Positions 9,449 to 51,474 of a DNA stretch of 64,000 bases are shown in pieces. The translations under genes and the position numbers were made by a program. Numbering within the stretch: the stretch's first letter is position 1; each line of letters starts with the position of its first letter. This DNA is from Bryoerythrophyllum caledonicum (taxonomy: Eukaryota; Streptophyta; Bryopsida; Pottiales; Pottiaceae). Where the stretch lies: assembly GCA_963971425.1 (NCBI GenBank), contig OZ020519.1, positions 20,171,397 through 20,235,396 on the forward strand. Direction: 5' to 3'. The notes beneath the pieces are model-generated. The model made no database searches. It worked only from the letters and a program-made list of their open reading frames with translations, and was not told the origin of the DNA.

Positions 9449-9702
9449 GATGGCTAAATAGCCTTTTCATGCGCTAATTCTTTAATTAGGAGCCACATTG
9501 TGGCAACCAAGGATTTTATGAAGTTAACCAAAAAATAAATAGAAAAGAAAAAAATAAAGAAAAGGATAGAAAAGACAAAAACAATAGAAAAGAATTAAAA
9601 TTAGAAGTGGTGGAGAAGAATTTACCTCCTACCGAGTCGAGGACCGCAATTGGCCACGGTGAGGAAATCACGGGGAAAAAAACTAGGAGAAGGAGAAGAA
9701 GG
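9336..9702 (+). repeat. R repeat copy 1, left fragment
   Basis: Begins TGTGGGCCGCAAAAACGGCC, which includes a short hairpin (GGGCCG/CGGCCC), and matches 36369 onward (TGTGAGCCGC...). Element A interrupts it at 9703 and it resumes at 28708. The shared text includes the 'aatttacctcctacc' segment and the Lys-coding purine runs. The TG start suggests an LTR-type end, but no matching target duplication is visible. Confidence 0.65.
9699..9702. repeat. Target-site duplication AAGG (left) of element A
   Basis: AAGG precedes the left terminal inverted repeat, and AAGG at 28708-28711 follows the right one. The unoccupied site in the second R repeat (about 36725-36735) reads ...GAAGAATGATGGTGAGG, the single-copy form of the joined flanks apart from small changes. 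This supports a 4-bp duplication. Confidence 0.8.
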
Positions 9703-9746
9703 ATGCCATATTTAACTATTTCTGGACTTTGCAAAGTCCAGAAATA
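9703..9746 (+). repeat. Left terminal inverted repeat plus 30-bp palindrome
   Basis: 9703-9728 is the 26-bp terminal repeat. Its inner part continues into a perfect 30-bp palindrome at 9717-9746 centred on TTTGCAAA (half-site TATTTCTGGAC...). The left end therefore carries the inner half of the terminal repeat twice in opposite directions and could extrude a cruciform. Element B has the same palindrome at 44532-44561. Confidence 0.85.
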
Positions 9747-9829
9747 AGGAAGAAGGATTTCAGTGTAGTAGAATTGTGGCACCCAATAGATTGAGAGGGA
9801 TACAAATCAAAATAAACTAAGTCATTCAG

Positions 9830-10041
9830 CCGGATATCTCCGGATGATTACAGTCAGACGATACGAATCGATTACAGTGATAGAACCTTGCTCAAGGCAA
9901 GGTACAATATTATCGACAGAAATTGTACTGACTCGATTTTCTTCCCATGGAGTACTTAGGGGAAGAATTTAGAGAAAATGAACATAGAGCAGAAGGCATT
10001 GACATTTCATGGATGCCGTTAAAAGAGCCGGAGATATCCGG
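9830..10041. repeat. Left subterminal motif pair with GATATC core variant
   Basis: CCGGATATCTCCGG at 9830-9843 and CCGGAGATATCCGG at 10028-10041. These are the same one-base variant of the internal 14-mer, in opposite orientations. The two motifs nearest the right end (28298 and 28470) also carry the ATATCC form, while the exact internal copies do not. Element B keeps the variant at 44644 and a decayed one at 44883. Confidence 0.75.
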
Positions 10042-10224
10042 TCGAAAGCAGGGAAAACAGAAAACAGTTGGTGAGCTTTGAAAAACAAAATTGCTTTTTC
10101 GGAAGGGAGTCCGTGTACAAGACCATCACATACTTGATCAACTCTACGAGATAGCAATGATTAGTCTCAGTGAAACTCCTGCATGAAAGAGCAAAACCTA
10201 TCCTGGCACTACCTCTGAAGACTT

Positions 10225-10662
10225 CTAAAGATCTTTCCAGTGCGCCGGCGCATACATGTCCGAATCAACATCAGACCCTGTGTCACAACCAGTTTGAAAT
10301 GGGCTGCAGCCGCCCTCCGAAGAAGATTCTTCCTCGTCAACATACCAGAGGTCGTCCTCCTCCTCATCTTCAACCAAACGACCTCCGAAGACCGACTCAT
10401 CTTCATCACAGTCGACCTCGTTCTCGTCCTTCGCTTCATAGTCGCTGCCGTCCTCCTCCTCTAGAACATACTTGCTCTGAGCGTCCTCCTCCAATTCGTC
10501 CCAAGCACGCCGAATAGAACCCATCGCCCCTGTGTACCCGACTTGAAAGCGTAGCAGTCGTCCCCTCTCCGAACCCTGAGCGTCGCTCACGATCCTTCGA
10601 GAAACTCTACGGTCTACCGAATCAGACTCTTCCCTCTCCCTCTTCCTACTTGCAAAAGCCAT
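10225..10662 (-). CDS. Small acidic protein of element A
   Basis: 145 codons, starting MAFASRKRERE and ending ...MYAPAHWKDL. A basic N-terminal patch (RKREREE, RRVSRR) precedes a long Asp/Glu-rich stretch (DEEEDDLWYVDEEESSSE) and a conserved tail GCDTGSDVDSDMYAPAHW. Element B encodes a 118-codon relative (45084-45440) with the same basic start, acidic middle and tail, and a stop at the same place, so the ORF end looks real. A TATA-like box lies upstream at about 10750-10755 in the gene's direction. I know no family. The acidic character could suit a protein that binds basic chromatin or DNA-binding partners, but that is a guess. The gene points away from the transposase gene toward the left end. 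Confidence 0.6.
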   Translation of the reverse strand: MAFASRKREREESDSVDRRVSRRIVSDAQGSERGRLLRFQVGYTGAMGSIRRAWDELEEDAQSKYVLEEEDGSDYEAKDENEVDCDEDESVFGGRLVEDEEEDDLWYVDEEESSSEGGCSPFQTGCDTGSDVDSDMYAPAHWKDL

Positions 10663-10749
10663 ATCCTCTCTCTCAACCCTGGCTATCGACTAACAGAACT
10701 AACAAGTTGAAAGACAAAACATGTGAATTGGTGAAGACCCGAACCCTTT

Positions 10750-10755
10750 CTTATA
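10750..10755 (-). promoter_or_regulatory. TATA-like box of the acidic-protein gene
   Basis: Reads TATAAG on the minus strand, about 90 bases upstream of the ATG at 10662. Element B has a stronger match, TATATAAG, at the matching place (45494-45501). Confidence 0.45.
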
Positions 10756-11250
10756 CTATCCTCCCTACCAACCCATTTATTACAGGTCTCGAGCGTAGGT
10801 AAAGGATGAGTCATTGATAGAAGTCGCCATAACACCGAGACTGATAAAAATAAAGGCAGCTTCCACAGACACGAATGACCAACATGGGACGCGACGCGTC
10901 AAGCGTGCTGTCGTAACGTGATGTGCGAAGTACAATCTCCGCCGCCAACCATTAGCATCACATGAATGATAAGAAGGTCCTCGTACAACTGGTATGAAGT
11001 GTGTAATTAACCGCGTATTATAATTTTACTTATGGCATGTCAAAAATCTAAGAAGGAAACAGCCACGGGAATAACCGAAAGGTCTCTGATACATTGTTGA
11101 AACATCCATCGTAAATTGAAATGCATTATCGAAGCCACAGAAGATCTCCGGATATGATTCAATACTATTAAGAACACCTAGGTAAGCTCAAAATTGGGAA
11201 GCTCAAAATTGGATCTCCATTAACGAGAATGGGGGATGTGAATCTCCTAT

Positions 11251-11555
11251 CCGGAGATCTCCGGCTAGATCTCACCGACTGAAACATGGCAATATACGAA
11301 CATCCTTAGGTCCACAAAATATTACTTCCACAGCCGGAGATCTCCGGTAAGCTTTCAGAAAGACGTGAGGGTCCAAAAATATACCGCTGGCAGAATTGAG
11401 TCAACAGTAACTCTGTCACTCCTCAATGTACCCAAATTTCATTGAATGGAAGAGTACAATTTCGGTCCTCTTCACGCTGACTGGCAAGAGCTAAAAGAAA
11501 GGATGCCGAACTCGGGCCCAGATAAATAAATTCGCCCACAACCGGAGATCTCCGG
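11251..11555. repeat. Palindrome cluster downstream of the transposase gene
   Basis: Exact CCGGAGATCTCCGG at 11251-11264, 11334-11347 and 11542-11555, and a decayed one near 11138. The last two correspond to 46155 and 46364 in element B, with spacing 208 versus 209. They lie in the 3' flank of the leftward gene that ends at 11648. Confidence 0.85.
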
Positions 11556-11647
11556 TGCTCTTCGGTGTGAACGTAGAAATTCTTCGAAATTTTAAATGAA
11601 GAGAATTTCACAGAATTGAATAATTGCTAGAGGGACTGATAAACGTA

Positions 11648-14600
11648 TCAAGGATCAGCGGCATTCGCTTTCTCTAAGTTCACAAGCGCTGCTTCTTTCA
11701 TTTTCCGTGGAATGGACCTCGTAAGTTGGTTAACTTTGCTTGACCAGGTCGCAAACAACACGGAACTCACATGACACCAAACAGGCTTCTCTTGGTCCGC
11801 AACCCAAGTGGCTTCCCAACAGTCCTGGTACTTCCTCTTCAGATTCTTCTGCTTGTTATCAGGCTCCCAATACTTAACGAGGAATTTCCCGTAGTTGACA
11901 TTACCATCTTCCCTGACGACCTCCGAAACTGCTCTTCCCTGCCAGACATGATAGATGTCAGGATCACTAGGTCTTACTAAAACCCAGGAGCCATGACGAA
12001 TGTCACGCCAAGGATTAAATGTAGACTTGGGGGCTTCATTAGCGGGTCCGCAGTAAGGCTCAAGAACCTCATCCTCGGGAGTGACATCCTCTGGTTGTGG
12101 AAGCAGTCCAAGAAGATTTTCACCTCCCTCATGAGGGCCTCTCCAATCATGGGTAGGCCTGAATCCCTCTTCGAGTTCGGAAGGCGTCTGGGGAAGTGGC
12201 TTGTCAAGCTCGTCGATGACATCCTTCCAGTACTGCAGGTATGGGCGAATGGAGTCCGCGTACCCTGCGCACTTAGTCATTCCGGACGCCCAGTAGTCAA
12301 CGTACTTCCGAAGCCCCGTCTTTATAAAGTTCTTGTTCTCCGTCGCTTTCCTGGCCTTGTCTCTGGCAACATCTTGGTTTCCAACAGGGCTCTGCTCCTC
12401 ATTACCCCATATGGGCTTGAATGGAACGGGCTTGGGAGATCCTGATGGAAGCATGGGACGTCCGAAGTCATCTACCTTCCAAAGTTTTATGGGCTCTCTG
12501 TTCATGGGTAACCACTCTGCATCAACGGCAGATTTCTTGAACTTCATGACCGGAACACCGTCATTGTCAACGAAGAACTTGAAAAGATGCATATCACTAA
12601 GTCCTACCAGACGTCCCGCCCCGCTGCATAGATAGCCATCGACATACGATTTGAAGTCGGCGACCTCTTGGATAACTTCCGGCATGAAGGCTAGTTTCTG
12701 TGACTTCATGTATGCCTTCATCAAATCCGCTAGAATATATGTACTGCTTTTCTTCAGTTCTTTCGAAAGATGACTAAAGTAAGCATCAATATCTTCATGC
12801 GTATGTCCGACGACCAAGAAGCCAACCTGTATCTCCTTGAAAACACCTCGAGCAGTTAGCAGTGATAAGAATGCCATCAAATATTGGTTCTTGTTATCCT
12901 TCGCGGAGTTGTCAAGCTGTAGGAACAATTTCGGTGGCAAAGGTTTCGGTCCCTTAAAAGCACTCGGCTCCACGGGCTCTAAAGCGTCCACGCACCTGCT
13001 CTTTCCCCTCATGAGCGCCGCAAACATCGAGTTTGGAGGTGGGTGCTCGAAGAGTGCGCGCGTCTCATGTAAAGGTGCTCCCTCAAGCCGCCGAAAAAGT
13101 TTTGCCAGGGAGGAGATGGTGGCGTTCGAATCTCCAGGCCATAAAGCAGGAGCATAGTGAGCATACACTCCGTCGACATGACCGTGAGCCACCATTCCAG
13201 TGACATTCATGGGAAGTTGTCCGAGACCAGATGTCGCCTTAGTGGTCCTCCACATGCGAGGAAGGGCAGTCTTCGCAGTGTCCATCTTGTCGTGAATGAC
13301 ACAAAGAAAGGTCAGCGGCTTCGCCTTCGACTCCTCTCTCCATGTCGCGTAGAGCTTCCGGCAAGATTGCTGGTGATTCAAGTGAGCCTGTCTATTGCTA
13401 TAGAATAGCTCGTAAGCGGGCGTTCCCTTTGGAGTCGTCAGTAAGAACTGATTGAATTCATCGCAAGTACTGCATTTTGCGAAGGTGCTTCCAGATGGCT
13501 TAATAGCAACATTCCCGAAGAATTCCTTTCTAACCCTATTAACTGTGGACTGACTTACAGGAGGAAGACCGTAGGAGTCGTTTGTCTGCAAGATGAAATA
13601 ATTACCAAGTGAGGACAGTATATCATAAGGATAATCCAGCAGACAGGGCGATGATCAGAGTATTGCAAAGAATGGAAATTTCAGTTCAACATTGACACAG
13701 CCGGAGATCTCCGGTTCACTAACTAGGACTTCGGTCGACTGAAGAAAGAGAGTTCAAATCCATATCACTGTGCAGGGACAAGTAACTTACAGCATTGACG
13801 CTTGCTCGAATTTGCTTCCAGTTGTTTCCCGCAGGAAGATACTTGAGAGTGTCAATCCGACCATTCCCTACACTACGCATTTGGTGAGGCATCTGATCCG
13901 CGTTGTCATTAATAATCGACGTCATTGACCCCATTGCTTGAATAGTGGCAAGCCGTGGGCGCTTGATGCCCTTGTTACCGTGAGTTGCATTGATGATTCC
14001 TCTACTGAAATGTGCGATATACGAGTGAAATGTGGACTTCCGAATTCCATGGATCGTGTACCATGCAACGGAGCAGACCTCCGTTCCTAATAGAGTGACG
14101 TACTTTCTCTTCCGGTCCCCGTCAATTGAGTGAAACTGGCCGCCTACCGAGATCGCATACTCCTTTCGGTCTTCAAAGGATCTGTCATAGAATTTCTGTC
14201 TAACAGAGAGAGTCTGGGATTGTTGAAAGTATTGGCAGCATCGTCTGGGACAGCACCTTTCAGAGCTGATTTTGCGAATTTCGTCATCCATAGTCCTCTT
14301 GGTGTACAAGGATTCTTTCTTGTTAAGGTCTTGCTGTCGGGAAATAAAGCGGTAAGGCTCCTTTGCACGACCCCCCAAATAAGCACCAGAATCAGGTTGT
14401 AATGGCAGGGATGCGAAATGATCTATTGTGCTTTTTAAAGACCTCCCGGAAGGAAAACAGCATTCAAGAATGGGCCACGATTCATGACTCATAATTCTCT
14501 CCGTGTCCCCCACAAAAACGTCGAGGACAGTTACACCAATGTTATCTTCTCCCAAGCATCCACTTCGGAAGTGATCCCCAGCTAACGACGCCATGATTCT

Positions 14601-15104
14601 ACCAGAGCAGAGTACTAACAGATTCCCGTCCAATCGCTGCACTTCAAGTCCAACCCATCTCTCACGTGGGACGAAAGGGGACTCGTCGGACCGGAGATCT
14701 CCGGTAGGAATCTTCACATCCGCCCTTCTCCACAGGACCGTCCGCCGAAGTGTTTGAACAAGTGAACAATATCCGCGTTGCAAGGGAATTAGTGGAAATT
14801 CTTCCGCCAAAGACGTTATGGCCGTTGGTCTGAGTAATACGAACTCACTGGAACCGACTGGTATGTCAACTCCAAGCCATTGACCAACTGGGTGGACCTC
14901 GACAATTGATGCTTCTCCAATTTCGCATGAGCCTGGCCTCAAGAGGTTCACGGACAATCCTGACCACAAAACCTCCGACCTTCCAGTAGACTCCTCGGAT
15001 GGATCATCTTCCTCCATAGAATCCGCTCGACAGAATTCGGGGCACTGAGCTGCGACCATGGCAAGATCGTCCGAGTCACTCTCCCACCAATCAGAGTCAG
15101 ACAT
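11648..15104 (-). CDS. DUF7869-like putative transposase (two exons)
   Basis: Exon 1 is 15104-13791 (438 codons) and exon 2 is 13585-11648. They are joined by a phase-0 intron (13790-13586, donor GTAAGT, acceptor TTGCAG), giving about 1,083 residues. Exon 1 has an acidic start (MSDSDWWESDSDDLAM), a Cys pair (CCPRRCCQYF) and an N-terminal helix-rich region ending HGIRKSTFHSYIAHFSRGII, typical of proteins annotated DUF7869. Exon 2 holds CSTC (about 476-479), IHDKMD (first Asp about 537), LQLDNSAKDNKNQY (Asp about 663) and VGHTHEDIDAYF (Glu/Asp about 702-705). The spacing is compatible with an RNase H-like Asp/Asp/Glu-Asp active site, my inference rather than an established fact. It is the best candidate for the mobilising enzyme. 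The 14-bp palindrome sits in the intron (13701) and once in frame in exon 1 (14691). Element B has a broken copy. Confidence 0.7.
13701..13714. repeat. 14-bp palindrome inside the transposase intron
   Basis: Exact CCGGAGATCTCCGG within the 205-base intron. Element B has a decayed form (CCGCAGATCTCCGG) at 48595. Confidence 0.85.
14691..14704. repeat. 14-bp palindrome inside transposase coding sequence
   Basis: Exact CCGGAGATCTCCGG. On the coding strand it reads as part of Thr-Gly-Asp-Leu-Arg-Ser. In element B the place (49585) is decayed to ...ACTAGAGATCTCCGG on the coding strand (Thr-Arg-Asp-Leu-Arg-Ser). Confidence 0.85.
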
Positions 15105-15218
15105 TCTTCCTGCCTCCGTCGGTCGATGTTCGGCTGCTGACCGATGGCTTTAGTACATGAATATATGGACGTGGATTAGAACTGAAAATCCATGGTCAAA
15201 ATCGTAGGGAGTGTCTAG

Positions 15219-15514
15219 CCGGAGATCTCCGGATGACTCGATATTGAACAGCAACGTCCATTCCTCGTGTAAGTGAGGATGTGAAGGGTGAAGCTAGAAG
15301 TTCTATTCGAATCTTACCGGAGATCTCCGGTTCATCCCAGCCACGCTGCCGTGATATCGTTCAATGATCATTTCGCCCATGAATAGCCGGAGATCTCCGG
15401 GAAAACTGGGCTCATAAATGGGACAGCCAGATGTTTTTTCGATAGTTACCGTGGCTTGCAAGTGAGCACGGCAGAATCCAGAATGTCACGGCTAGAACAG
15501 CCGGAGATCTCCGG
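15219..15514. repeat. Four-palindrome cluster upstream of the transposase gene
   Basis: Exact CCGGAGATCTCCGG at 15219, 15317, 15387 and 15501 (start positions). The intervals 98, 70 and 114 are reproduced exactly in element B (50113, 50211, 50281, 50395). The cluster begins 115 bases upstream of the ATG at 15104, in the promoter region of the leftward gene. Confidence 0.9.
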
Positions 15515-16359
15515 TTCGAATCAACGTCGATATCGAAACATTGACCGTACGGAACATTCGAGGCTGTGGCAGAAAGATTCAGTTGCCAATCCCTGAGAAC
15601 TGTTCGGATTCACACCCCGATCAGTGTGGTCATCCTACTTCTCGAGTCGAAATATATTAGGCGCTCCGGATCTATCTCTTAATTAGGAGACGATTTAGTA
15701 ACTAAATCACTACACGACAGCTTCCGGTCGACTTTGAGGGCGAAGAGAAACACAATCTATACCAATCCTATCAAATTGAATGCCGATTTGAAATTATACG
15801 AGGATACAATCCTAACACTCCTGGAAGACCTACTGTCAAATTGTTTCCCTGCAGAATTCCAGCACGATGTCGCGCACACAAACACTCTCACTAACTGGCT
15901 CAGCTCCCACAGTATCCCAAACCTCTAGAGCAAAAAAGGATGAGAGCTGAGTTGAAGGTTACTCTTATCAACCTCCTCATCACCTCCTGGTGGGAAAATT
16001 CAGGCGCTTAAATTTGAAACGAATCTTGGGCATGCATTCTCTATCATAGTAGCAGCTGTACACCATCATGATAGTGCGCATTCTTCAACGTGCCTACGAC
16101 CGAGGCCACATTCCACTCATGATAAGTGAATGGCTCGTACTCGTGGGATGACCGTATTGTAAGGAAACCATCTAGTCTACAGAGTGCTGCAAATTAGAAA
16201 ACGGAAGATGAAGTATGCCCCATGGTGTGTCTTTGTGATTACAAGGGCCGTATCAATACATGGACTAAGTATAATGTAATCGTATTATTCTTCTTGTACT
16301 CACCATTGTGAATGAAATTATACCCTACGCATGGATAACAGTCGGCCCACTGCTGCCCA
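15515..16359. other. Non-coding spacer of element A
   Basis: Recognisably conserved in element B (about 50409-51240), but the short ORFs here are not conserved as protein there. I see no gene. Ends where the CACTA-like element is inserted. Confidence 0.5.
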
Positions 16360-17423
16360 CTACACTAAAAGTTTCATTTAGTGTAATTGCACGAATAGTG
16401 TACTTACCTTTGTACATTAATTGCAAACAACTTGACAAATAGTGTACTAATTGCAAAGAAGTGTACATTCTAAATAGTTAATTCGATCAAAAATTACTTC
16501 ATCAATAATAACTTTATCGGAGTACACTCCATGGAAATTTATTTTTTATTAGCTTACTTTTACAAGATATTACTATTTCACGTTTTACTTCTTAAAAAGT
16601 TAACTTTTACAAAATTTACTTTTCCAAACATCAACTTTTTCAAAACTTTACTTCACCATACATTTACTTTTACCAAACATTTACTTTTTCAAATTTTTAC
16701 TTTACCATACAATTACTTTTACCAAACATTTACTTTTTCAAAACTTTACTTTACCATTCAATTACTTTTACCAAACATTTACTTTTTCAAAACCTTACTT
16801 TACCTTACAATTACTTTTCAAAAGTTCACTTTTTCAAAAGAAAATTATTTCAAAAGTTCACTTTTTCAGAAGTAAATTATTTCAAAAGTTCACTTTTTCA
16901 AACGTCTACGTTATCAAATCTTTACTTTTTCAAATGTTTACATTTGGGAAAGCTTATTTTTACAAAAGTTTACCTTTTCAAATGGTAAGTTGTCTTTTTT
17001 CCCCGAATTGATGTTTTTTCATAGTTCTTGTTTTTTTCAAAAATGTTGTTTCTTCCAAAATGTTTTTTCCTAATTGTTGTTTTTGCAAAAATGTTGTTTT
17101 TACCTATTTGTTGTTTTCCCAAATTGTTGTTTTTTCCTAATTATTATTTTTTCGCAATTGTTGTTTTTCCAATTTATTGTTTATGAGTTTTATTTTATCT
17201 CTTCTTCACCTTTGACAAAACATATTTCTCTTCTACTTTCAATACACTAAACGTGCACGAGTAAAATAGTTAATATTCCAATAGGGTTTACAAAAGTTCA
17301 CAAATAGTGTAGTAGTTCACATTTAGTGTACTATTTTGTCACTACAGTAATTGCATAGTTGACAATTAGTGTATGGGTTCGTATTTAGTGTGCACTACAC
17401 TAAATGAAACTTTTAGTGTAGTG
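16360..17423. mobile_element. CACTA-like non-autonomous element, 1,064 bp
   Basis: The ends 16360-16387 and 17396-17423 are perfect 28-bp inverted repeats starting CACTACACTAAAAGTTTC. Each repeat is partly self-complementary (TACACTAAA...TTTAGTGTA). Element B lacks this block at the matching place (about 51255), which proves insertion after the two copies parted. Sub-terminal words such as TTTAGTGTA and AATAGTGTA recur inside. The middle is a T-rich array of TTTACTTTTNCAAA-like units, then TTGTTTTTNC-like units. No coding capacity. The CACTA start favours the CACTA (EnSpm) superfamily, but a 3-bp target duplication is not visible (GCC left, TTG right). Confidence 0.75.
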
Positions 17424-17639
17424 TTGTTCAACTGACACTACAGGACACAAGTAGAACGTCGACATTCGTTTCCAATGTGAAATATCTCCAAAATTTCCTT
17501 GTTCGACAAAAGCTATTTGTCTACTTTTGTAGATACGTGTAGAAATATATAACTGAGTAGATGCTTTTAAAAGTACAGCAACCTGGTCCTATGAAAATGG
17601 GTACTGCTTCCGTGGTAAGGCAGGATTGTTCATCACGGT

Positions 17640-18003
17640 TTTAGGGTTTACGGGTTTTAGGGTCTAGGGTCTAGGGTGTAGTGTCTAGGGTCTAGGGTCT
17701 AGGGTCTAGGGTCTAGGTTTAGGGTCTAGGGTCTAGGTTTAGGGTCTAGGGTCTAGGGTCTAGGGTCTAGGGTCTAGGGTCTAGGGTCTAGGGTCTAGGG
17801 TCTACGGTCTAGGGTCTAGGGTCTACGGTCTAGGGTCTAGGGTCTAGGGTCTAGGGTCTAGGGTCTAGGGTCTACGGTATAGGGTCTAGGGTCTAGGGTC
17901 TAGGGTCTAGGGTCTACGGTATAGGGTCTAGGGTCTAGGTTTAGGGTTTACGGTTTAAAATTTCGGGTTCACTATTTACAGTTTAGGGTTTAGGGTTTAG
18001 GGT
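17640..18003. repeat. Telomere-like heptamer tract (TCTAGGG/TTTAGGG)
   Basis: About 40 tandem heptamers, mostly GGGTCTA (TCTAGGG) with TTTAGGG at the edges and some TACGGTC variants. Element B has a shorter TTTAGGG-type tract at the same place (51475-51560), so a short plant-telomere-type array was present before the copies split and expanded here as the TCTAGGG form. It is interstitial, flanked by element sequence on both sides. Confidence 0.9.
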
Positions 18004-18739
18004 TTCTACTTCACGGTTTGGGGTTGAAGGTTAAGGGTTCACGGTGTACGATTCACCGTGGAAGGTTCTGGGTTCATGAAGGTCGAGGGCTTATATCACC
18101 TTTAAATCTATAAATTAGAAATTTATTGATTCTATGGACTATAACCTTAAATTTATCAATAATAGTTATAACTTAAAAAAAAATTGGATTCAATAGCGTG
18201 TAAGAAAATTTAGCGATGATTGAATTTTAACTATTTAAGACTTTGATACATTATGATTTAGTTAGAGGGAGAATAAAGAAGAGAGGGAGGATAATGGATA
18301 TAACTTTAGAGTAGACTAGCTGTTGGTGCTTGCTTTGCAATGCATTAGCCCATTGTCATCATTTTTATGTATTTTTAATATTTAAAAATACGAAAAAATG
18401 AAAGGTGGAATGATTCACTGTACAGTTGACACCGCGGTTCAAGTAGAGTTTTTGTAGTTCACAGCATGGTTGACTACGCGATAGTTAACTTCGTGGTTTA
18501 TGGCGCAAATTATGATTTTAGTACTATGGCTAGGAGTTGGGGCTTGCTTTGCAACGCATTAGTTCAACCATTAATGTAGTTTTAATATCACAAAATAATT
18601 AAGAAGAAAGGTAACAACAAAGTATATACCTCTTTGAAACCTATGCATGATTTAATAATGCAATAGAATAGAATAGAAAAAATAAATTTACTATTTCAAT
18701 AGTACAATATTAATAACCAAGAACGGATATTGAGTAGGA

Positions 18740-19935
18740 GGGGTAATTAAAAGTAAAATAAATTAAAAACAAGGGAGAGGGAGAGTAAGGAAAGGACAGG
18801 AATTGAGAAGGAGAGTAAGAAAGTGACAGGAAGGGAGGGATTTATTTTAAAGTAGTTTATATTTTTAGAATATGGCACTACGGGAATTTAGGGAATAAAA
18901 AAAAAGTCAAAATTAGAAAAGAGATGGAAAGGGAGAGTAAGGAAGTGAGGGAGAATAAGGGGTAGGGAGGGAGAATAAGGGATAGGGAGGGAGAGTAAGC
19001 GAGGAAGAGTGCGGGATTGTTTTTGAGAGTAGTTATTTAATTTTAGAATGTGAATTTATTGAAAGAAGGAAAATCCAAAAAAGTAAACTTCAAAAGGAAA
19101 ATAGAGATGGAGATGGAGAAGGAGAGGAGAGTAAGAGTATAAAAATAAAAAACAAGTAGGAGGGAGAGTAAGCGAGGGAGAATAAGGCAGAGAGGGAGAG
19201 CAAGAGAGGGAGAGTAAGGGAGGGATTTATTTTAAAGTAATTTATATTTTTAGAATATTGCACTAGGGGAATTTAGGGAATAAAAAAACAAAGTCAAAAT
19301 TAGAAAAGAGATGGAGAGGGAGAGTAAGGAAGTGAGGGAGAATAAGGGGTAGGGAGGGAGAGTAAGGGAGGAGTAGTGCGGGATTGTATTTGAGAGTAGT
19401 TATTTAATTTTAGAATGTGAATTTATTGAAAGAAGGAAAATCCAAAAAAGTAAACTTCAAAAGGAAAATAGAGATGGAGATGGAGAAGGAGAGGAGAGTA
19501 AGAGTATAAAAATAAAAAACAAGTAGGAGGGAGAGTAAGCGAGGGAGAATAAGGCAGAGAGGGAGAGCAAGAGAGGGAGAGTAAGGGAGGGATTTATTTT
19601 AAAGTAATTTATATTTTTAGAATATTGCACTAGGGGAATTTAGGGAATAAAAAAAAAAGTCAAAATTAGAAAAGAGATGGAGAGGGAGAGTAAGGAAGTG
19701 AGGGAGAATAATGGATAGGGAGGGAGAGTAAGCAAGGAAGAGTGTGGGATTTATTTTTAGAGTAATAGGTTAATTTAAGAATTTATAATTATTGAAATCA
19801 GGGGGAGCCTAAAAACTACTAGAATCAAGATTAAAAATGAGATGGAGATGGAGAAGGAGGGGAGAGCATAATATAAATAAGAAAAACAAGTGAGGGAAAG
19901 AAGGGAGGGAGTGTAACGGAGAGGGAGATTAAGCT
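18740..19935 (+). repeat. Purine-rich GGGAGAGTAAGG repeats with 370-bp tandem duplication
   Basis: Built of GGGAGAGTAAG(C/G)GAGG words. Blocks starting near 18838, 19220 and 19590 (each beginning with the word GGGATTTATTTTAAAGTA) repeat with a period of about 370-380 bases, including AT-rich filler. Element B carries a less expanded equivalent (52310-53030). No gene. Confidence 0.75.
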
Positions 19936-19978
19936 TTTTCACTTATGACGTTTTAAATTCAAGTATGATGATTACTCT

Positions 19979-20042
19979 AATACCCGGTGAACCCGAGTAT
20001 CTACTGTAGCCATATGTAATACCCAGGAATCCGGGTATCAAT
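19979..20042. repeat. Conserved ATACCCGG/CCGGGTAT hairpin
   Basis: The words TACCCGG and CCGAGTAT, then ATACCC and CCGGGTATC, can fold into a nested hairpin. Element B keeps it (53076-53136) with changes mainly in the loop. Confidence 0.5.
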
Positions 20043-21025
20043 ACGTCTTGTCACGCATGCTCACGACATTGACAATTCATGATTGTGAAATGTACACGTT
20101 GAATATGTACGTGATTAGAGCTGATTTTAAAGTTCACCCACTGTCATCATGAGCCGTCACAGCCCTTGAGCCGTCCAGCTTGTCCCTATCGGGTTAGGGG
20201 AACTCCTAGCATCAAACCTTTTTTTTTTATGGGTGTTGTGTTTGTAATGTCGTAGGTAGTGAGCGGAAGTGGCGGGAGGGGTTTTTTTCGTGGTTTGCGC
20301 AGTAGGCGTCAACGCATTAGGTTAGGGCGGTGTGCGCTGTGAGAGGCTGTCGGTGTGCGAGGTGAGTGTTGATAAAAGTGAGGGACATTGAGCATATCGT
20401 CCAGAGGTTGTTTCTGGATATGGACTGAAGGTCGGAGAGCAGGACTGGAACAGAGATACTGAAATAGGATTTTAAATTTAGCGAGCGCCTCGGTTCACGA
20501 GCGAAGCTGAAACGACGTTGCGGTTGAGGGTGGCGTCTTCACGAACGACCACGAGGAACGGGTGCGCCGAATCGGTCAGTGAAGAGGTATGTATTGTCTC
20601 ACAGATTAAAATTCAGTGTCATCAAATATCGAAGTTTCCCAGGACTGCTTAGAATCGGAACTGGGGCAGGTGTAGGGTTCGGTAAGCGCCATTAGGGTTC
20701 AAGAGAGTCGAGTAATTCTGATGTTGTTAGACGTTGAAGCGGAATTGTAGGGCTTAGGGTATAGGGTTCTGGTATTCAGTGCATTCAGTATAGAAGGTCC
20801 GGAAATGAGCATGTTATGCATGTTATGCGTGTAAATGAGCATGTTATCCGTAAATGAGCAGTGTTGAAATTTATTTTGAGGAAATCTTGTCAATCAGATG
20901 TGGACCTGAAATTCTAGGGCATCTGAAAAATTGTAGAGTTTGTGAGGCTGAGTTGTTGAACGTTGATGTCATCCAGAGCTGTGAATTCGCTTCGATCCCG
21001 AGGAGTTCCTCGAGGAGGTTGGGAA
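20043..21025 (+). promoter_or_regulatory. Likely promoter and 5' leader of the rightward gene
   Basis: No ORF of note. A donor-like GAAGAG|GTATGT occurs at about 20588 and is kept in element B (60612), which suggests a non-coding first exon. Conservation with 56454-56737 and 60380-61010 of element B is continuous except for the insertion there. The first conserved ATG follows at 21026 in a good plant context (GAAATGG). Confidence 0.4.
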
Positions 21026-24000
21026 ATGGCGACTGGAGCTGGAACGTCGAGTGAGACATCATGGAAAGGAGACCGGTAAGTCCACAACATTGAACTGTTT
21101 TCACTGTGTCCGAGTGACTGTGTGTGGATTCTATATTTAACTGTGATTCAAGTTTGTTCATTTGATTCCTAGCGGGTGTATGGCAACAAAGTACACTTAA
21201 ATAATGAAGAGAAACCTCAGATGATGAGTACTAGAATTCAGATATCTGTTAGGCTATAGTCGATTATATTTTTGATGTCCCATGAACAGAAGTGTGTTTC
21301 GAATCATGAATTTGCGAGTGATGATGGTATTGCACGAACATCAGAATGTGCTTGTCCATTCTGAGTCCGTCGAGTCCGGTCCGATTTAATGACAAGAGTA
21401 ATCCATGTGCAAACCTCACATTTGGCGTTCCATCGAAACATTTGCAGATTCAATTTCCTGTGTGTAAGGTCGGTTATTGAAAGCATTGTGAGAGCATTTG
21501 ATTCGTCTCAGTGTGTTTTGTAACTTGAAACATGAATTTTGAGTATGTAAGACTTCCAGTGTAGTATGTCAAACTTCTCTGTGAATGAATGTGAATTTAC
21601 GCGTGATGGTAAGTTGCGATTAGTGCAATGTTAATCCGTACTTACATCAGCCGGAGATCTCCGGTTGCATCCCAAACGGAATACGGAGTTTCAATAATCA
21701 GCCGAAGATCTCCGGATATTGTCGAGGTAGGATAAATCATGATTTATTTTCCCACGATTTAGTATATCTCAGAAATATCCGAAGATCTCCGGACGTTACG
21801 AAGTAGTGCATATACGCGCGTAGGAAGATGTGAACATCGTGAAACTCGACATTCAGGTCATCATCCGGAGATCTCCGGTTCAGGACAGAAGTGGCTCCGG
21901 CTGATACGTACCGAATCGTTCCTGGACGGGTGCACACGACACCCGCAAATCAGCCGGAGATCTCCGGATATGTTCGCAATGGAATTATTCGAAAACGAAC
22001 GCCATTGCTGCTCACAATCCGACATAGAGCGATAGATTTCGGGACGTTTCAAGCATGTTTCGATACCCCCTCACGCCGGCTACAGATCGTTCCTGACGAA
22101 CCGGAGATCTCCGGCTGAGCTCATGCAAGATACTTCAAGCGATTTAAGATCAGTCAAGTATCTGTAGATCTGATGATTGTGCGAAGACCTCCCCTCGCTT
22201 GGGAAGTAATAAACTATTTTAGAAGTTCGATTTCTATCATACACCTCTAGGAATGCAACCGATTTTGAGTGACGGACTCTCCATAGGATACCGGTCAATT
22301 GCAGTGATTTCTAACTGCCTTTGTGCTCTCTCAAACTCATCTTGCAGGGATTCGTGGACAACCACACTTCCGACTGAAAGTCGTCCCGGGAAGCTTGGGG
22401 CGTTTGTAGAGTTCTGGCTCCCTGAGTTTGTCTACAGAGGAATTCACAATGTTGGCTACGTCTACAAATGCCGAGAGAGCATTACCCAGTGGGGAATGAA
22501 GCTCTTGAAAACCCCTGAAGAACCCTGGACATACGTCCCCCAACTTCGGATTGGAAAACGGGGACACCCCGACATTGGACTCGAGGTTCTAGAAATGCAG
22601 GGTCTTGACGACAATGTCTGCCTCCTTGTCGTCCAGGAGAACGTGGACTCATCCACCGAGCCTCTCATATACGGCTTGATTCTGGAGACATCTAAGATTT
22701 CGGATGAGATGGCGGAGACATGTCAGAATGAGAACTTCATATTCAGCCCTCCCACGAGTGATACATGGAGCCCGGCGTACGTTAATGAGCAGTGGAAGTG
22801 GATGGCAGAAGCACAAGAGAAGTCCCGAAAGCCCGTTCCAGACCCGACACCCATTCTGTCCCTGACACCAGAATCAACCCCGGGAAGAAAACGCAAGACA
22901 ACCGTGAAAACTTCGACCCCAGGTTCCTCGTCGCGGGCAGAGAAGGGAAAGAAAGCGAAGGCCGATGAGCCTGGCCTGGCGATCGAAAAGTGCCTAAACT
23001 TCACACAGGCTGACCTTGCCAAAATGAAGAGGACTGAAGTTGAAGCAATTGGCAAGGTTCTCGACGACGCGTTCAAGAACATATACATACTCAAGAATAA
23101 GCCTTTGACAGTAGAAGACCCTGTCACGAAGAAGGATGTCGTGAAGCTCGTTCATTTCAATAATCTACATAGGGCCCCCCCTGGAGGATTAGTGTACAGG
23201 GGCATCCAGAAAGAACGGCTCGAAGGAATCATCAACGCAGTTCGTGCGTCGTCGAAGGCCACGGCCCCAGAGATTCACATTCGAGTCTTGCCACTGAAGA
23301 ATAAACCTGACGGAACTAAGGTGGAGTTCTTCGCGACCAAACCGACGAAGGAGGACTGCCTTAGGGACACGACATACTTTTACATTATTGGTGGTCAGCA
23401 TACTGTGGAGGCGCACAAGATCTTGTCACACGAACTGCCATCAACGTGGACGCTCGAAGAAATATCGCACTTCTCTATCATCCCGGTTTGGACCAAACCA
23501 AACCCCAAAGACATGACCCTGCTGCAACTCTCGCGAGCTCTGAACCAGGATCCGACGGGTCTGCGGAAGGAGCAGAGTTTTACTCAGCAGCTGCAAACGT
23601 GCAGAGTGAAGTGGTTTGAGTTCGGGAAACCCGCCCCCCAACTCTATGGTCGTCCACAATCTGACAAATTCTCGGTAAGCTTACATCCTCCACCTGAATA
23701 TATTTCAATTTCATCAATGAGCTCATTCTTCAAGCAACAAATCCAATCTACCGGAGATCTCCAGGTGCTCACACACTGAGTTATATATTATTGCAGACGT
23801 TCCAACGGCAAGTGGTGCCGACGGTTTTCACTCACCTCGGCAAAACTGACCCAAAAGACGCGAAGGTCCCTCTTCTATTCGAGATGGACGACGCCGTGGT
23901 CCAGAAGTGGATCCAAATCGATAGGATGTTCGTCGCTGGACTCCTTCCAGACTCGAACGGGAAGACTGGCGACCCAGCTAAGCTGAAGCGGAAGCCTTTG

Positions 24001-27000
24001 GTGCAGAACGACTTCAAGCCACTCTATAAAATGCGCGCTGAAGACCTTGACTACCTCGCGGAGTTAGTGCTCGCGAAGAAGGTCTGTGTGAAGTCCTCCA
24101 AAGCGGCAAACCAAGGTACTATGAAAGGGCAGGCCGAGACACTCGAAAACGCGGCGAACAGGGAGAAGAGAATCCGGGCTATGAAGAATGAACTCATGTT
24201 AAATTACAAGTTGCACCTGCTTCCCTCGAAGGCTGCTGACTTTGTCCCTTACACGAAGGATCAGTGGGACACCTTTGCGGCAGAGTGGGATATTGGACGG
24301 GTTCAGCTCGAGTCATGGGTGGACGCCGCTAATCACTCTGCCAAGGGTAAAGCTTGGCTTGAGGGTCGACTAAAGGCGATCAACAAGGACATCGACCCCA
24401 CCCCTGAGGTCCTTGTGTCCATTTGGAGTCAACACATCGTTGAAGATGCTGCCGAGGCCACACCCATGGATGACATGTCCCTGTTCGATTTCAAATATAC
24501 CTGCAGGATTATGCCAGAGAGAGGGGGCGAGATCGCCGAAGTACTTATCATGCCGGACATTCAGGAGTGGCGTAACGTCAATGACCCTCACTTTTACTTC
24601 TTTTTCCTCTATCGCGTGAAAGACGACATATGCCGTGCACAGGTCCTGGATGCGTTGGACTTCAAAACCATTTTCGACCATCTGGAAGTGGACACGAAGG
24701 ACGGGAGGACGAGAGTCAGATCACCGTCCGTCCTTATCACCGATGTCGCGGGATTCGTTGAATTGAAGAGGTACATCAATCTTCGACAGAGAGAGTCCAG
24801 GGGCAAGGTGAAATTATGGGCGACGCATGTTGTCTACTACTTCCCCCACCCAGGTGATTGGTTTCCGACCCCAGTAATCGGGGTCGAGGAGGCAGTGTAT
24901 TGTGTATTCCTATATGAATACGACTCCAGCGAGACGCCAGCTCAGTCATTCAAGAGGCTCTACAAAGTCCACGCTGACAAAATGTAGGCCTTCTATTCAG
25001 CTGCTCAACATCTAGAAACCATCCAGCGTTGGAAGCAAACCGGTGTCCCACAGCTCAGGATCTCGGTCCTTGATTTGCTGTTCACGGGGTTCATTAGAGA
25101 GGATATGGTGGTCGTCAATGTCCATGGTGGACCACATTTCACATACCTCGGATTGGTAAGCAGAACATCCTTCCCAAGCACTTCAACGTCATAGATTTTT
25201 GGTCCGTCTTCTGGTATATGTTTTGGATGTTGCCTTACACAGGCTTTATCTTGGAGACTCACGACGCCCGGGTCCTCGAGATTGTGAGCAGCGAAGATGC
25301 CAAACTCAAGGCACAATCCTGCGCTGAAGAAATATTCAAGTACCACTTGAATCTCTTAGCCGACGTACCTGACGTACCCGACGCCGCTGCAGAGGAGTCA
25401 GAGGAGACTGCCATCACTGGGTCAACCCCAGACGCTGGTGTTCTAACACGGGCAATGTCGAGGATGAACTACAGCGGCGAGGTATAACAGCTAATAAAAC
25501 TACATGACCCGGAGATCTCCGGTTGTTCATACGTTTAGGATGCCTTGCATATATTAGGGCTCATATTTCTCATCGCCCTGCTCAGATATAGTTCACCCGG
25601 TACACATGGACCACTTTAAACCGGAGATCTCCGGGTGTATTATACCGTTCTCATTTCAATTGCATCCTAATGTTCTTCGCACTGACTTCGTCAATGTGAC
25701 GCAGACGCCTGATGCCACGATGATTGAAGTTGATGTGCGGTATCAACCGAGTTCATCAGCTGCACCCAACATTGGACTCCAGTCCTTGGCCATTGCCGCG
25801 CAGATCGTCGGAACGGGCACCCCATCCCCGCCCATACAGGTAGACGTTGATGAACCACCGTTTCCTATCAGGCAAGCCTCGCCTAGTTCGAGAAGCAACT
25901 CTACTCCGGCCGCTAGACTCGGTACTCCTGAAAACGAAACCAGTTGGCATTCCGGCATGCCACGTTCTCCTTCGCCTGGTCGGGACGATGACACGGCAAT
26001 GTCCGATCGCCTGGACTTTGACGATTTCCAAAGAGCACCCGGAGATATCCCGTTGGCCGACTTTTCGAGGACGCGTCCATTAGTGGAGGTTGTGTGCAAG
26101 AGTGCTCAAGACTTGACGTTGCGTGACACCGATCAAACGATGGATGAGGCGTCGGCGCAGTACACATTGCGTGAATTACATGCTATGAGCCCTCTACGCA
26201 GCCCTCCGCGGAGCCACAGGCAGCTGGCTCAAAAAGAGAAGAAAAAAGCAATCGCGAAGAATCCTACGGCGAAAGCTCCTCCACCTCCACCTACAATTCG
26301 GACAAGGGCCCAAAAAGATAAGGTGAATAGTTACTTGTCCATGAAACCTTCTTCATTGTTCTAAGGACAGTTCACTCGATGCTGACCTTATTCTTACCAC
26401 TTCGTTACTGGTATTCAGGGGTCCGCAGAATCAACACAGTCGAAGGATGTCAGTGACAGGAACCCCGCACAGACTGCTCAAGTTTCTGGTGTAGCTCAGA
26501 CTTCTAGGGATACTCCACCTACTGTCCCAGGTGCCTAATATGTACATTCATACTTATGTGCCATCATCTATATTGTGCTCATTTTTCCACCCAGCAATTC
26601 TGGATTGTGAGTGCAGAACACTTCTATATGTATAATTGAAATTTCACTTTGCTGAACAACTTCCCTATCTCAGTCTACGTACTCGTATTTTGGGTTCAGG
26701 TTCGACGAAGCCTACTACGATCGTCCGAGAGCCTCCAACCGAGAATCAGGTAACATCCAATCGGGTTTATCATGTCGTGTTTGACTTAAATGGAGTTATT
26801 GTGCACAGGGGGGAATTCAAACAGGGACAACCGAGAGACATCAAAGTAAGGCCTGGTTCCACTGAACTCCTGAACTTCGTGGGAAAGAAGGCTACTGTCT
26901 CATTCTGGAGCAGTGTGTTGGAAAAGAATATTGTGGATATTATCAAGGAGTTGCGCAAGAGAGGTGCTGTCATTCCGGAAGGCGTCACAATCCTGACGCA

Positions 27001-27373
27001 GGCCCATTGCACAAAAACATCATATACGCTCCCATCCTATCCATCGAAGCCAATTTTCCTTAAGGACCTGACAATTTATAACGCTAAGGCGTGCCCCAGG
27101 TCTCCCAAGGATGTCTTGCTTGTGGACGATACTCCACTAAAGAACGTCCTTAACGATTCATTCAGCGCAGTTCATCCGCCATCATGGACTGGGAATTCGA
27201 AAGATACCTGGGTGTCCACCATTTTTCTCCCATGGCTCTCCGGACTGCTAGCGTCGAATGAGGATGTTCCCGACTTTGTTAGACGTCATCCATTGATGTT
27301 TGCCAGTGATCCAGTAGACAAAAATTCCAAAGAGGCCCGGTCTGTGGTGAAGGGCATAATTTCGGCTCCTTAG
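21026..27373 (+). CDS. Seven-exon ParB-like / NIF-like fusion gene of element A
   Basis: Proposed exons: 21026-21075, 22348-23674, 23797-25155, 25243-25481, 25705-26322, 26419-26530 and 26700-27373. All introns are GT-AG and most junction phases agree (2, 0, 0, ?, 0, 0, 1). The product would be about 1,460 residues. Exon 1 (MATGAGTSSETSWKGD) is kept with the same 50-base length and donor in element B (61011-61060). Exon 2 has a Lys/Ser linker and a ParB-like segment YFYIIGGQHTVEAHKIL (about residues 360-376). Exon 3 is a long unrecognised domain ending VVNVHGGPHFTYLGL. The last exon is an NIF/FCP1-type HAD domain. Two defects: a TAG at 24985-24987 in exon 3, after which the frame stays open, and a one-base phase mismatch at the 25155/25243 junction. 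This copy is therefore probably inactive, or my model is slightly wrong. Confidence 0.55.
21651..22114. repeat. Six-palindrome cluster in the first large intron
   Basis: Exact CCGGAGATCTCCGG at 21651, 21865, 21954 and 22101. CCGAAGATCTCCGG at 21702 and 21779. All lie within the proposed intron 21076-22347. Confidence 0.85.
22348..23674 (+). other. Exon 2: ParB-like GGQH domain
   Basis: 442 codons starting (R)DSWTTTLPTESRPGKLG. First part: an unrecognised globular region with FWLPEFVYRGIHNVGYVYK and a domain resembling nothing I can name. Middle: a low-complexity, basic linker (GRKRKTTVKTSTPGSSSR, KGKKAKAD) that may be a nuclear localisation signal. Last part: LVYRGIQKERLEGIINAVR, then EIHIRVLP, and GGQHTVEAHK, the order seen in ParB/Srx-like proteins (a substrate-loop Gly-Gly-x-His in place of the usual GxRR or GNHR). 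ParB-like folds bind or cut DNA or use NTPs; which applies here is unknown. Confidence 0.5.
23675..23796. other. Intron 2 of the rightward gene with decayed palindrome
   Basis: 122 bases, donor GTAAGC, acceptor TTGCAG, phase 0. It contains CCGGAGATCTCCAG at 23751-23764, one base from the consensus. Confidence 0.6.
25482..25704. other. Intron with two exact palindromes
   Basis: Donor GTATAA, acceptor GCAG, phase 0. CCGGAGATCTCCGG at 25509-25522 and 25621-25634. As elsewhere in the element, the palindrome sits in non-coding sequence between coding exons. Confidence 0.6.
26700..27373 (+). other. Last exon: NIF/FCP1-like HAD domain with DLNG motif
   Basis: Frame continuity with 26419-26530 (phase 1, Gly split across the junction) supports fusion. 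HAD motif I is FDLNGVIV: the nucleophile Asp is present, but the usual second Asp of DxDx(T/V) is Asn. Motif II region is ATVSFWSS and motif III is VLLVDDTPLKN. In FCP1/SCP phosphatases the second Asp is the acid/base, so activity may be altered or lost. 'DLNGV' or 'DVNGL' variants occur in plant proteins annotated as FCP1-homology; that is from memory. The exon ends at TAG 27371-27373. Confidence 0.65.
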
Positions 27374-27621
27374 AACAATGAATTATATTGGTTATTTTAA
27401 ACTCTATGCTTTGTAAATGTTACGTCAAGGATGTCTGTGGGATTTCGACCATTCAATTTTGAAGATAAATGTTGTTGTCAGTAACGTTATTTGTTGAGGT
27501 CCTTCTTTTTATTTGTTATTGTTAGTGTCTCGCCCCCAAGCTTCACCTTCCAATATCTGTGATCACTTCTGAGTATTCTCCTCACCATTTCGTCTGCCGA
27601 ACGTTGGTCTGGGAGGGTCAC

Positions 27622-27635
27622 CCGGAGATCTCCGG
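27622..27635. repeat. 14-bp palindrome 3' of the NIF-like exon
   Basis: Exact CCGGAGATCTCCGG between the NIF-like exon and the small terminal ORF. Confidence 0.85.
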
Positions 27636-27704
27636 TCGAATTCGTGTCACTTGAACTCCTCCTACCATATTTTCTCCTCATTCCAGTGCTCTATTTCTAA
27701 TTCG

Positions 27705-28181
27705 ATGGTCTTGCCTTCTTATTTGCAGGTCATAATCATATCACTCCGCGGTCCTCTCTGCTCGGACGAGGTCCTTGACTCGGCCAAATCCCGCTCCACG
27801 CAGCTGCCTTCCTTTGATGACACGGCAGATGTTATTCGAATACTACTGCGGTATTTCAATGTCGGGATCTGGTCTCCTATGCGTCCAGATAGGCTCATGG
27901 AGGCGGCCCAATTGTTATTGCCCCCAGACATCTTATCAGATATTCTTTTTTGCTATGCCAGCAAACAGACTCGAAGGCCCACTTATGTTAGGTTTCTCCA
28001 CATCTTCAAGAAGGCTTCATTTAATCCTCGAACAAGGCATTATTTGTGGCCCAAATGTGTTGTTGTTGCAGATCTAGATCCATTCAAGAATCCTAGAAAG
28101 GCTATAGTTCATTATCTAACTTATGGGAGACACCATACTGGACGGGTAGAGGGCATCTATAAAGCACTTAAATTAGAATAG
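27705..28181 (+). CDS. Small terminal ORF of element A, unknown function
   Basis: 159 codons from ATG 27705. Alternatively an exon starting at 27730 after the acceptor-like TTATTTGCAG, which would make it the last exon of an upstream transcript. The text VLDSAKSRSTQLPSFDDTADVIRILLRYFNVGIW and the C-terminus RKAIVHYLTYGRHHTGRVEGIYKALKLE look like a folded helical domain, not random sequence. The start of this pattern (order, then 'DDTADVIRILL...Y') faintly resembles BTB-like helical repeats, but I would not assign it. It lies 525 bases inside the right end. Confidence 0.4.
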   Translation: MVLPSYLQVIIISLRGPLCSDEVLDSAKSRSTQLPSFDDTADVIRILLRYFNVGIWSPMRPDRLMEAAQLLLPPDILSDILFCYASKQTRRPTYVRFLHIFKKASFNPRTRHYLWPKCVVVADLDPFKNPRKAIVHYLTYGRHHTGRVEGIYKALKLE

Positions 28182-28297
28182 TTGAATCGATTTTCCATAG
28201 ATTACACGCGCCTCTTAGCAACGGCCACCCCTCATTTATTGTATGACACTTTTTTATAATGAAACAGTTTAGTATTGGACTCTTACTCTCATTTCAT

Positions 28298-28483
28298 CCG
28301 GAGATATCCGGTTGCATGTTCTATTAATTGCGAGTATTTTCTATCCATAGCTCTGTCCCAGTTTTCCCTACCACATTTTTCCTAACCACACATTTGTGAT
28401 GTACAGTATGTCCATCAATTTCTGTTCTCAGGACTCGGTTCTTCTTCTGAATTCCACCTTGATATTTACCCGGAGATATCCGG
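28298..28483. repeat. Right subterminal motif pair with GATATC core variant
   Basis: CCGGAGATATCCGG at 28298-28311 and 28470-28483, 224-410 bases from the right end. This is the same variant as at the left end. Confidence 0.75.
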
Positions 28484-28659
28484 CTGCATGCTGCAGACTC
28501 ACGTATTGTCTAGCCATTTCAAATTTGGTCGCTCTAGCCATTTCTTCCTTCATAAGTGTCATTGGTGATGCATTTAATGCTTGAATAGTACTCTAAACTC
28601 CTCGACTTTTATGCTTCACTATCTCTTATGAGGCACATCTCCGGATCTTTCTTTTAGTC

Positions 28660-28711
28660 CTTAGTCCAGAATTCACCTCATAGTCCAGAAATAGTTAAAT
28701 ATGGCATAAGG
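28660..28711 (-). repeat. Right terminal inverted repeat and AAGG duplication
   Basis: 28682-28707 is the exact reverse complement of 9703-9728, followed by AAGG (28708-28711). Just inside, AGTCCAGAA occurs once more (about 28662-28670), echoing the doubled half-site at the left end. Confidence 0.85.
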
Positions 28712-44517: not shown

Positions 44518-45083
44518 ATGCTGTATTTAACTATTTCTGGACTTTGCAAAGTCCAGAAATAAAGAAGAAGGATTTTAGTCTAATAAAATAGTGGCTCCAA
44601 GGAAATTGAAAGGGATACTGAGTTAACATACTTTGATCATTCAGCCGGATATCTCCAGATGATTTCAATGATATGATATGAATCGATTACAGTGATAGAA
44701 TAAGCCTGGAATTGTGATAGTTACGATCGAAAACTGATAACAACTTTCAAGCTAAAACGTTTATAAAACATATTACCATGTCATATGGTCAACTGTACAT
44801 TTATGAGGGAATACAGTGTAGAAGAAGAGTACAATGCACTATAGAGCTTTAAGCACTGACATGTAAAAATGTCGTTCAGCCATCCAGAGATATCTGGTCG
44901 ACAGGAAACTACTGATGAAAAAATGTATCGGTTGTTCAAAAATGACAATCCAACTTCGGAAGGGAGTCCAATCACAAAAGCGTCTAATACAAGAGAAAAT
45001 GTACGAAAAAGTTGTGCCTGGTCTCAGCTAAACTCTTGGATCTAAGGACAATTTTTATCCTCGCACTACCTCTCTGAAGAGCT

Positions 45084-45440
45084 CTAACGATCCCTCCAAT
45101 GTGCCGGTGCGTACATGTCCGAATCGACATCAAACCCTGTGTCACACCCTGTTTGAAATGGGGTGCAGCCGCCCTCCGAGTCAGATTCCTCCTCGTCTTC
45201 ATACCATGGGTCGTCCTCCTCCTCATCTTCAACCAAAGCATCTCCATCGAGGGTCTCATCCACTTTGGAGTCGATCTCCTTCTCGTCCTCCAAGTTGTAG
45301 TCGATGCCGTCGTCCTCCTGTTGAACGTACTCTCTCTCCATCTTTCGTGTAATTCTCCTCTCTAATGAATCCATATCTTCCTTCTCCCTCTTCCTACTTG
45401 CGGAAGCCATCACCTCTATCTCCACTCTGGCTATGGACAA
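45084..45440 (-). CDS. Small acidic protein of element B
   Basis: 118 codons. The start is either MSIARVEIEV at 45440 or MASASRKREKED at 45407; the latter matches element A's MAFASRKRERE and I prefer it. A basic patch is followed by a shorter acidic stretch and the shared tail GCDTGFDVDSDMYAPAHW. Still open, unlike the transposase gene beside it. Confidence 0.55.
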   Translation of the reverse strand: MSIARVEIEVMASASRKREKEDMDSLERRITRKMEREYVQQEDDGIDYNLEDEKEIDSKVDETLDGDALVEDEEEDDPWYEDEEESDSEGGCTPFQTGCDTGFDVDSDMYAPAHWRDR

Positions 45441-45493
45441 AGAAGACTTAACGTTGAATCACAAAACATATGAAATGCTGCACTGTTGAACCC

Positions 45494-45501
45494 TCTTATA
45501 T
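45494..45501 (-). promoter_or_regulatory. TATA box of the element B acidic-protein gene
   Basis: TATATAAG on the minus strand, about 90 bases upstream of the preferred ATG at 45407. Confidence 0.5.
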
Positions 45502-50014: not shown

Positions 50015-50112
50015 CGGTGGATGTTCGGCTAGTGGCTGATGCCCTCAATGAGATAATGAGTACATGTAGAAACGAACTGGATGACCATTGTCAATATCTT
50101 CCGCTAGGCTAG

Positions 50113-51470: not shown

Positions 51471-51474
51471 AGTG

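Follow-up and report, generated by a model that had tools for sequence, protein, structure and literature searches.

A giant Sola-like transposon in a moss, with dispersed palindromes that its own ParB-like protein may bind

The question raised by this locus is why a giant transposon should carry, scattered along its length, many copies of one short palindrome. The element spans positions 9703-28707, with both ends exact, of a 64,000-nucleotide stretch of the moss Bryoerythrophyllum caledonicum (contig OZ020519.1, positions 20,171,397 to 20,235,396), which we call the window. Our preferred reading, to which we give a probability of roughly 0.6, is that the element is a Sola-like transposon encoding the protein that binds the palindromes, most likely a ParB-like one, the likeliest purpose being to counter silencing by the host. 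The dispersed palindromes, which the original prediction had passed over, look new and are in our view the most interesting part of the element (Table 1).

The palindrome CCGGAGATCTCCGG, taken together with its end variant, occurs at 24 sites in the element when up to one mismatch is allowed, and 22 of these lie outside coding sequence. For the whole window the count is 30 against an expectation of 0.01. The outermost sites, two per end, are all of the type CCGGAGATATCCGG, those further in, in spacers and introns, are AGATCT-type, and no site was found in the AT-rich middle of the element. Every site contains two CpG, yet the sites are more conserved than their surroundings. This was seen in all four comparisons with a second copy in the window and with a related family, B, the first comparison being weak; placements drawn at random did as well as the real sites in 162, 26, 4 and 59 of 5000 cases, respectively. 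For the four sites upstream of the transposase gene, identity to the second copy is 0.964 within the sites and 0.709 around them.

There are also observations that weigh against our reading. Of 28 left ends, 5 and 8 lack an exact copy of the respective terminal site, as do 7 and 1 of 16 right ends. Family B has nothing corresponding to one of the six sites that precede the ParB-like gene (this one was scored as zero), and in the second conservation comparison one of three sites matches at 10 of 14 bases. Six codons of the transposase read as stops in one member of the pair of copies compared, and so does one codon of exon 2 of the ParB-like gene in one copy; all of these were left out of the ratios of nonsynonymous to synonymous substitution (dN/dS) given below.

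The placement of the sites bears on which protein might use them. Subterminal repeats in CACTA and hAT elements have an accessory role in transposase binding, and the palindromes could likewise be accessory transposase sites that serve end synapsis or length measurement, with no part in anti-silencing. The special type of the four outermost sites fits this idea, as do the dyads of two further families, F and G, which adjoin the transposase gene. However, the majority of sites sit in introns and spacers over 1 kb away from both ends, which is unlike subterminal repeats as generally known, and a separate end repeat, TTCTGGACT, would suit a transposase. This repeat is present at the element ends; at the left end two inverted units of it make up the palindrome TATTTCTGGACTTTGCAAAGTCCAGAAATA, and the units are perhaps the transposase sites. 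We regard an accessory transposase role as unlikely, though worth keeping in view.

Binding by an element-encoded protein needs a candidate, and the best one is the product of the gene on the strand opposite the transposase. We call it ParB-like for the motifs LH.AP...YRG and IIGGQHTV, which are common to five proteins; it is on motifs only that ParB homology is suggested. No ParB family matched any of four proteins up to an E-value of 5, no profile library tried gave support, and the open reading frame (ORF) of a more distant family, C, matched no Pfam family up to E 10. Comparing the element's family, A, with families B, D and E gives a dN/dS of 0.15-0.21 for exon 1 and 0.13-0.16 for exon 2 (23797-24984), and the transposase, compared between the window element and the second copy, gives 0.17 (ORF 11648-13651) and 0.21 (13719-15107). 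Like the transposase, the ParB-like gene evolves under purifying selection, and therefore it is not idle cargo. The in-frame stop at 24985 in the window copy is absent from 9 of the 10 other readable copies. The original prediction had joined this gene to the downstream NIF-like part as one fusion, but the parts look like separate genes: a frame running through both is ruled out by the stop at 25487, and the NIF domain starts at about 26770.

The same gene could instead be, or once have been, a ParB-methyltransferase fusion, with the palindrome, whose core is GATC, as the site that the fusion protein methylates. Its orientation relative to the transposase is that of a published 1104-aa algal protein (PMC12477816), a stretch of exon 2, IREDMVVVNVHGGPHFTYLGL, resembles a methyltransferase motif I on visual inspection, and families A and C have sites with GAGATCTC as their common core. 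Against this, exons 2-3 have no Pfam match up to E 10, a DPPY motif is not evident by eye, and the 971-aa ParB-like protein found no relative at E 0.001 among 7823 candidates scored. We consider this fusion reading improbable.

If an element-encoded protein does bind the palindromes, related elements are informative. A search with a diverged protein (P0123) gave 1425 candidates, of which 92 were scored, and these separate into families. Families B, D and E, each read in one copy, have the A site; identity to B is 98% for D and 91% for E. Family C, also read in one copy (L052), has 36% protein identity to A in the compared region. The A site was not found in that copy, which has TCGTGAGATCTCACGA instead, with 12 matches at up to 3 mismatches in 6 kb where 0.04 were expected. 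The family C 16-mer is present at 41 places in the whole assembly (the reversed control gave 0), all of them on contigs C200-C836 and none on C1-C15, and the six best P0123 matches are also on these short contigs. The contigs carrying family C could belong to a different organism present in the sample, or to a separate compartment. Families F and G, from a search with 4738 candidates and 43 scored, have single-exon DUF7869 frames of 937 and 956 aa, and many of the 43 are without stops. Their dyads, each read from one 1151-bp stretch upstream of the transposase, are TTATCCTCGA-n-TCGAGGATAA in the first (9 half sites against 0.08 expected) and ATTCAGCTCG-ggt-CGAGCTGAAT in the second (10 half sites against 0.03, in one tandem array).

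Altogether, four groups of related elements within a single assembly have four distinct dyad sequences. Because relatives carry different palindromes, the comparison suggests that each lineage makes a protein recognising its own DNA. It also speaks to the idea that host factors read the palindromes as promoter, splicing or enhancer sites. Site clusters do stand directly upstream of both the transposase gene (15219-15514) and the ParB-like gene (21651-22114), as that idea would have it, but sites are also found in introns and past gene ends, and a shared host factor does not predict a different palindrome for each family within one assembly. A role for host factors is in our judgment distinctly improbable. 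A bolder form of our own reading is a self-recognition code, in which the ParB-like protein and scattered palindrome of each lineage co-evolve, and the protein, once bound, coats the entire element in the manner of ParB and protects or marks it against silencing. Such a code would be the equivalent of VANC in this plant, assembled from a module of prokaryotic type. We offer this tentatively, at somewhat less than even odds.

In the mechanism that we propose, the 1083-aa DUF7869 protein would act as a DDD transposase that cuts at the 26-bp ends and inserts the element with a 4-bp stagger, presumably by cut-and-paste. The ParB-like product would most likely bind the 14-bp palindromes across introns and spacers, so that the element would carry a coat of its own protein from end to end. 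Such a coat would most likely serve to keep the copy expressed, or recognisable, in the face of host silencing, as VANC does for VANDAL elements of Arabidopsis.

That this is a multi-gene DNA transposon with defined ends, as had been predicted, is confirmed. The 26-bp terminal inverted repeat ATGCCATATTTAACTATTTCTGGACT is perfect at 9703-9728 and at 28682-28707, and the AAGG duplication flanks it at 9699-9702 and 28708-28711. The proposed unoccupied site is also there: in a related stretch the two flanks abut at 36.73 kb, with 88% identity on the left (9336-9705 vs 36369-36735) and 87% on the right (28708-29141 vs 36729-37163), and the four bases of that site are AATG. Tandem arrays of 33-69-bp units are present in both of these related flanking repeats (29265-29708 and 37289-38182).

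The first 101 bases of the element were used to search its own genome (437 Mb, 894 contigs). There were 324 first-look candidates, and the 40 that were scored are all 98-100% identical over the query. The match halts at element base 1 in 8 of 8 left-end loci; the flank of one of them (L008) also has a separate 410-bp, 84% match, reversed, to an inner part of the element. For 20 copies we took 10 kb around the expected right end. In 16 of these the match runs up to base 19005 and stops, giving copies with both ends spaced 17.5-21.6 kb apart, close to the 19 kb expected; in the other 4 no match reached the element end inside the 10 kb examined. The 4-bp duplication is exact in 13 of the 16 and different in all 13 (GTAG in copy C1:53263249, for instance), and in the remaining 3 it agrees at three of four bases. 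The conditions that had been named as refuting the element, a lack of further copies with these ends or homology that continues past them, did not materialise. A chance repeat or wrongly set ends are ruled out by the palindrome statistics together with the stop of homology at both ends across loci. Scans of viral contigs with the element end and with protein profiles found no relative, which is weak evidence against a viral origin. The second insertion, said to start at 44518, is confirmed and is collinear with the element, with main blocks 72-86% identical; it is interrupted by other insertions and extends past the window edge. A DDE_Tnp_4 (Harbinger-like) transposase frame is situated at 55048-56349, between its blocks.

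The superfamily is a further question. The prediction of a DUF7869-like protein is confirmed by a Pfam profile match at E 1.1e-44. Predicted splicing of the two exons gives an open frame of 1083 aa, and a DDD-type RNase-H fold with invariant Asp residues is predicted, so the protein looks like a DDD RNase-H transposase. Named relatives are in Physcomitrium, Ceratodon and Riccia, and the closest matches (65%) are metagenome proteins. The claim that the cargo fits no known superfamily is not supported. The founding paper of the Sola superfamily is reportedly that of Bao et al. in 2009. Sola elements are described as having a DDD transposase, 4-bp duplications and inverted repeats of 11-1124 bp, some exceeding 15 kb, and as occurring in Physcomitrella (PMC10741241), which is listed elsewhere with Sola1 (PMC9033089). 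Because its DDD transposase and 4-bp duplication match this description, the element is probably a Sola-like transposon, of Sola1. The 26-bp repeat falls within the published range, and the moss host and giant size agree as well.

It could be argued that DUF7869 elements form an unnamed superfamily outside Sola with the same duplication length, as the placement was made from published descriptions, and a full-text literature search for DUF7869 gave no paper. Dispersed palindromes are absent from the portions of the Sola accounts used here. Given that the transposase type, duplication length, moss distribution and size all agree with published Sola, we find this rather unlikely. As for other superfamilies, Pfam matches the transposase ORF to DUF7869 and, up to E 1, to no Mutator family, and the 4 bp here fall short of the 7-12 bp given for Mutator duplications (PMC10741241). 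Ginger is described in the same source as having a Gypsy-integrase-like transposase, and none of the 9 ORFs scanned has an rve match up to E 1.

The remaining cargo has higher dN/dS: 0.41 for the acidic protein gene (compared with the second copy over 108 codons), 0.64 for the Pro/Ser-rich stretch (one stop codon in one copy left out) and 0.59 for the NIF-like frame at 26636-27370 (two stop codons in one copy left out). A second Asp is usual in HAD motif I. In the NIF-like frame this motif, at 26776-26804, reads FDLNGVIV, and because Asn takes the place of the second Asp, phosphatase activity is doubtful. The AT-rich middle of the element holds telomere-like arrays at 17658-18005 (TAGGGTC, about 42 copies, and TTTAGGG), which have a counterpart in the second copy at 51469-51620.

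Table 1. Features of the element and of its second copy, in window coordinates
Feature	Position	Strand	Basis or conservation
Left target-site duplication AAGG	9699..9702		differing 4-bp duplications in 13/16 other copies
Left 26-bp terminal inverted repeat	9703..9728	+	homology of 8/8 loci stops at this end
30-bp perfect palindrome TATTTCTGGACTTTGCAAAGTCCAGAAATA at left end	9717..9746		identical in 25/28 left ends
Terminal-type site CCGGAGATATCCGG	9830..9843	-	exact in 23/28 left ends
Terminal-type site CCGGAGATATCCGG	10028..10041	+	20/28 left ends exact, 1 one base off, pattern not found in 7
Gene for small acidic protein (~145 aa)	10225..10662	-	ORF
Three internal sites CCGGAGATCTCCGG (11251, 11334, 11542), downstream of transposase	11251..11555		2/3 unchanged in second copy
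Transposase exon 2: DUF7869, DDD RNase-H domain	11648..13585	-	Pfam, predicted fold, predicted splice
Transposase intron, contains site 13701-13714	13586..13791	-	GTAAGTTA..TTGCAG, predicted by frame
Transposase exon 1, one palindromic site (14691) within	13792..15104	-	predicted splice
Four internal sites (15219, 15317, 15387, 15501), upstream of transposase	15219..15514		pattern search
Nested insertion with 28-bp perfect inverted repeats CACTACACTAAAAGTTTCATTTAGTGTA	16358..17423		in AT-rich middle of element
Six internal sites, upstream of ParB-like gene	21651..22114		5/6 kept at 12-14/14 bases in family B
ParB-like gene exon 1 (5' end approximate)	22349..23674	+	motifs LH.AP...YRG and IIGGQHTV
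ParB-like gene intron, contains site 23751-23764	23675..23796	+	GTAAGC..TTGCAG
ParB-like gene exon 2, in-frame stop at 24985 in window copy	23797..25155	+	dN/dS
ParB-like gene exon 3	25257..25487	+	acceptor inferred from frame and family B
Two internal sites (25509, 25621)	25509..25634		both identical in family B
Pro/Ser-rich coding stretch, near-site at 26039	25705..26364	+	ORF
NIF/FCP1-like (HAD) phosphatase-like coding exon (start approximate)	26700..27373	+	Pfam PF03031, E 1.1e-13
Internal site	27622..27635		pattern search
3' ORF	27733..28181	+	ORF
Terminal-type site CCGGAGATATCCGG	28298..28311	+	9/16 right ends exact, 5 one base off, 2 unresolved
Terminal-type site CCGGAGATATCCGG	28470..28483	+	exact in 15/16 right ends
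Right 26-bp terminal inverted repeat	28682..28707	-	perfect inverted match to left end
Right target-site duplication AAGG	28708..28711		sequence read
Second, older copy	44518..61420	+	element matches end at 61420; right end beyond window

As far as we are aware, transposons have been found to encode the means of recognising their own sequence over the whole element in only a few cases. In this high-copy moss transposon, an accessory gene under selection is found alongside palindromes specific to each family, and these palindromes are candidate targets for the ParB-like accessory proteins that giant Sola elements are reported to carry. With at least four dyad sequences among relatives in one assembly, site specificity, anti-silencing and co-evolution become testable.

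Three known systems help to place the proposal. In bacteria, ParB acts with repeated palindromic parS sites, and the moss element shares with that system a ParB-like motif and repeated palindromes, although homology is unsupported by any profile tried. Among eukaryotic transposons, Sola1-1_Ec32 of Ectocarpus is a 21.5-kb giant with an opposite-strand gene for a 1104-aa ParB-like/methyltransferase protein, and the study suggests that proteins of this kind could bind to the transposon encoding them and modify it (PMC12477816, citing Iyer et al. 2011). The two are alike in giant size and in a large ParB-like gene, assigned here by motif, on the strand opposite the transposase. They differ in that the algal element has a DNA methyltransferase domain, for which Pfam detected none in the moss element at E up to 10, and in that the moss element has a NIF-like gene; no binding sites are described for the algal element in the portion of the account used here. 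VANDALs are Mutator-like elements. In Arabidopsis, VANC counters their silencing through short motifs, located in introns and non-coding DNA, which vary from family to family (PMC5735166). VANDAL motifs are arrayed, non-palindromic and 8-9 bp long, as described there, whereas those of the moss element are palindromes and mostly dispersed, and the moss element differs in its transposase and in having a ParB-like protein as the candidate binder. What the two have in common is short non-coding and intronic motifs that vary between related families, and by this analogy VANC is the closest functional parallel to the system that we propose.
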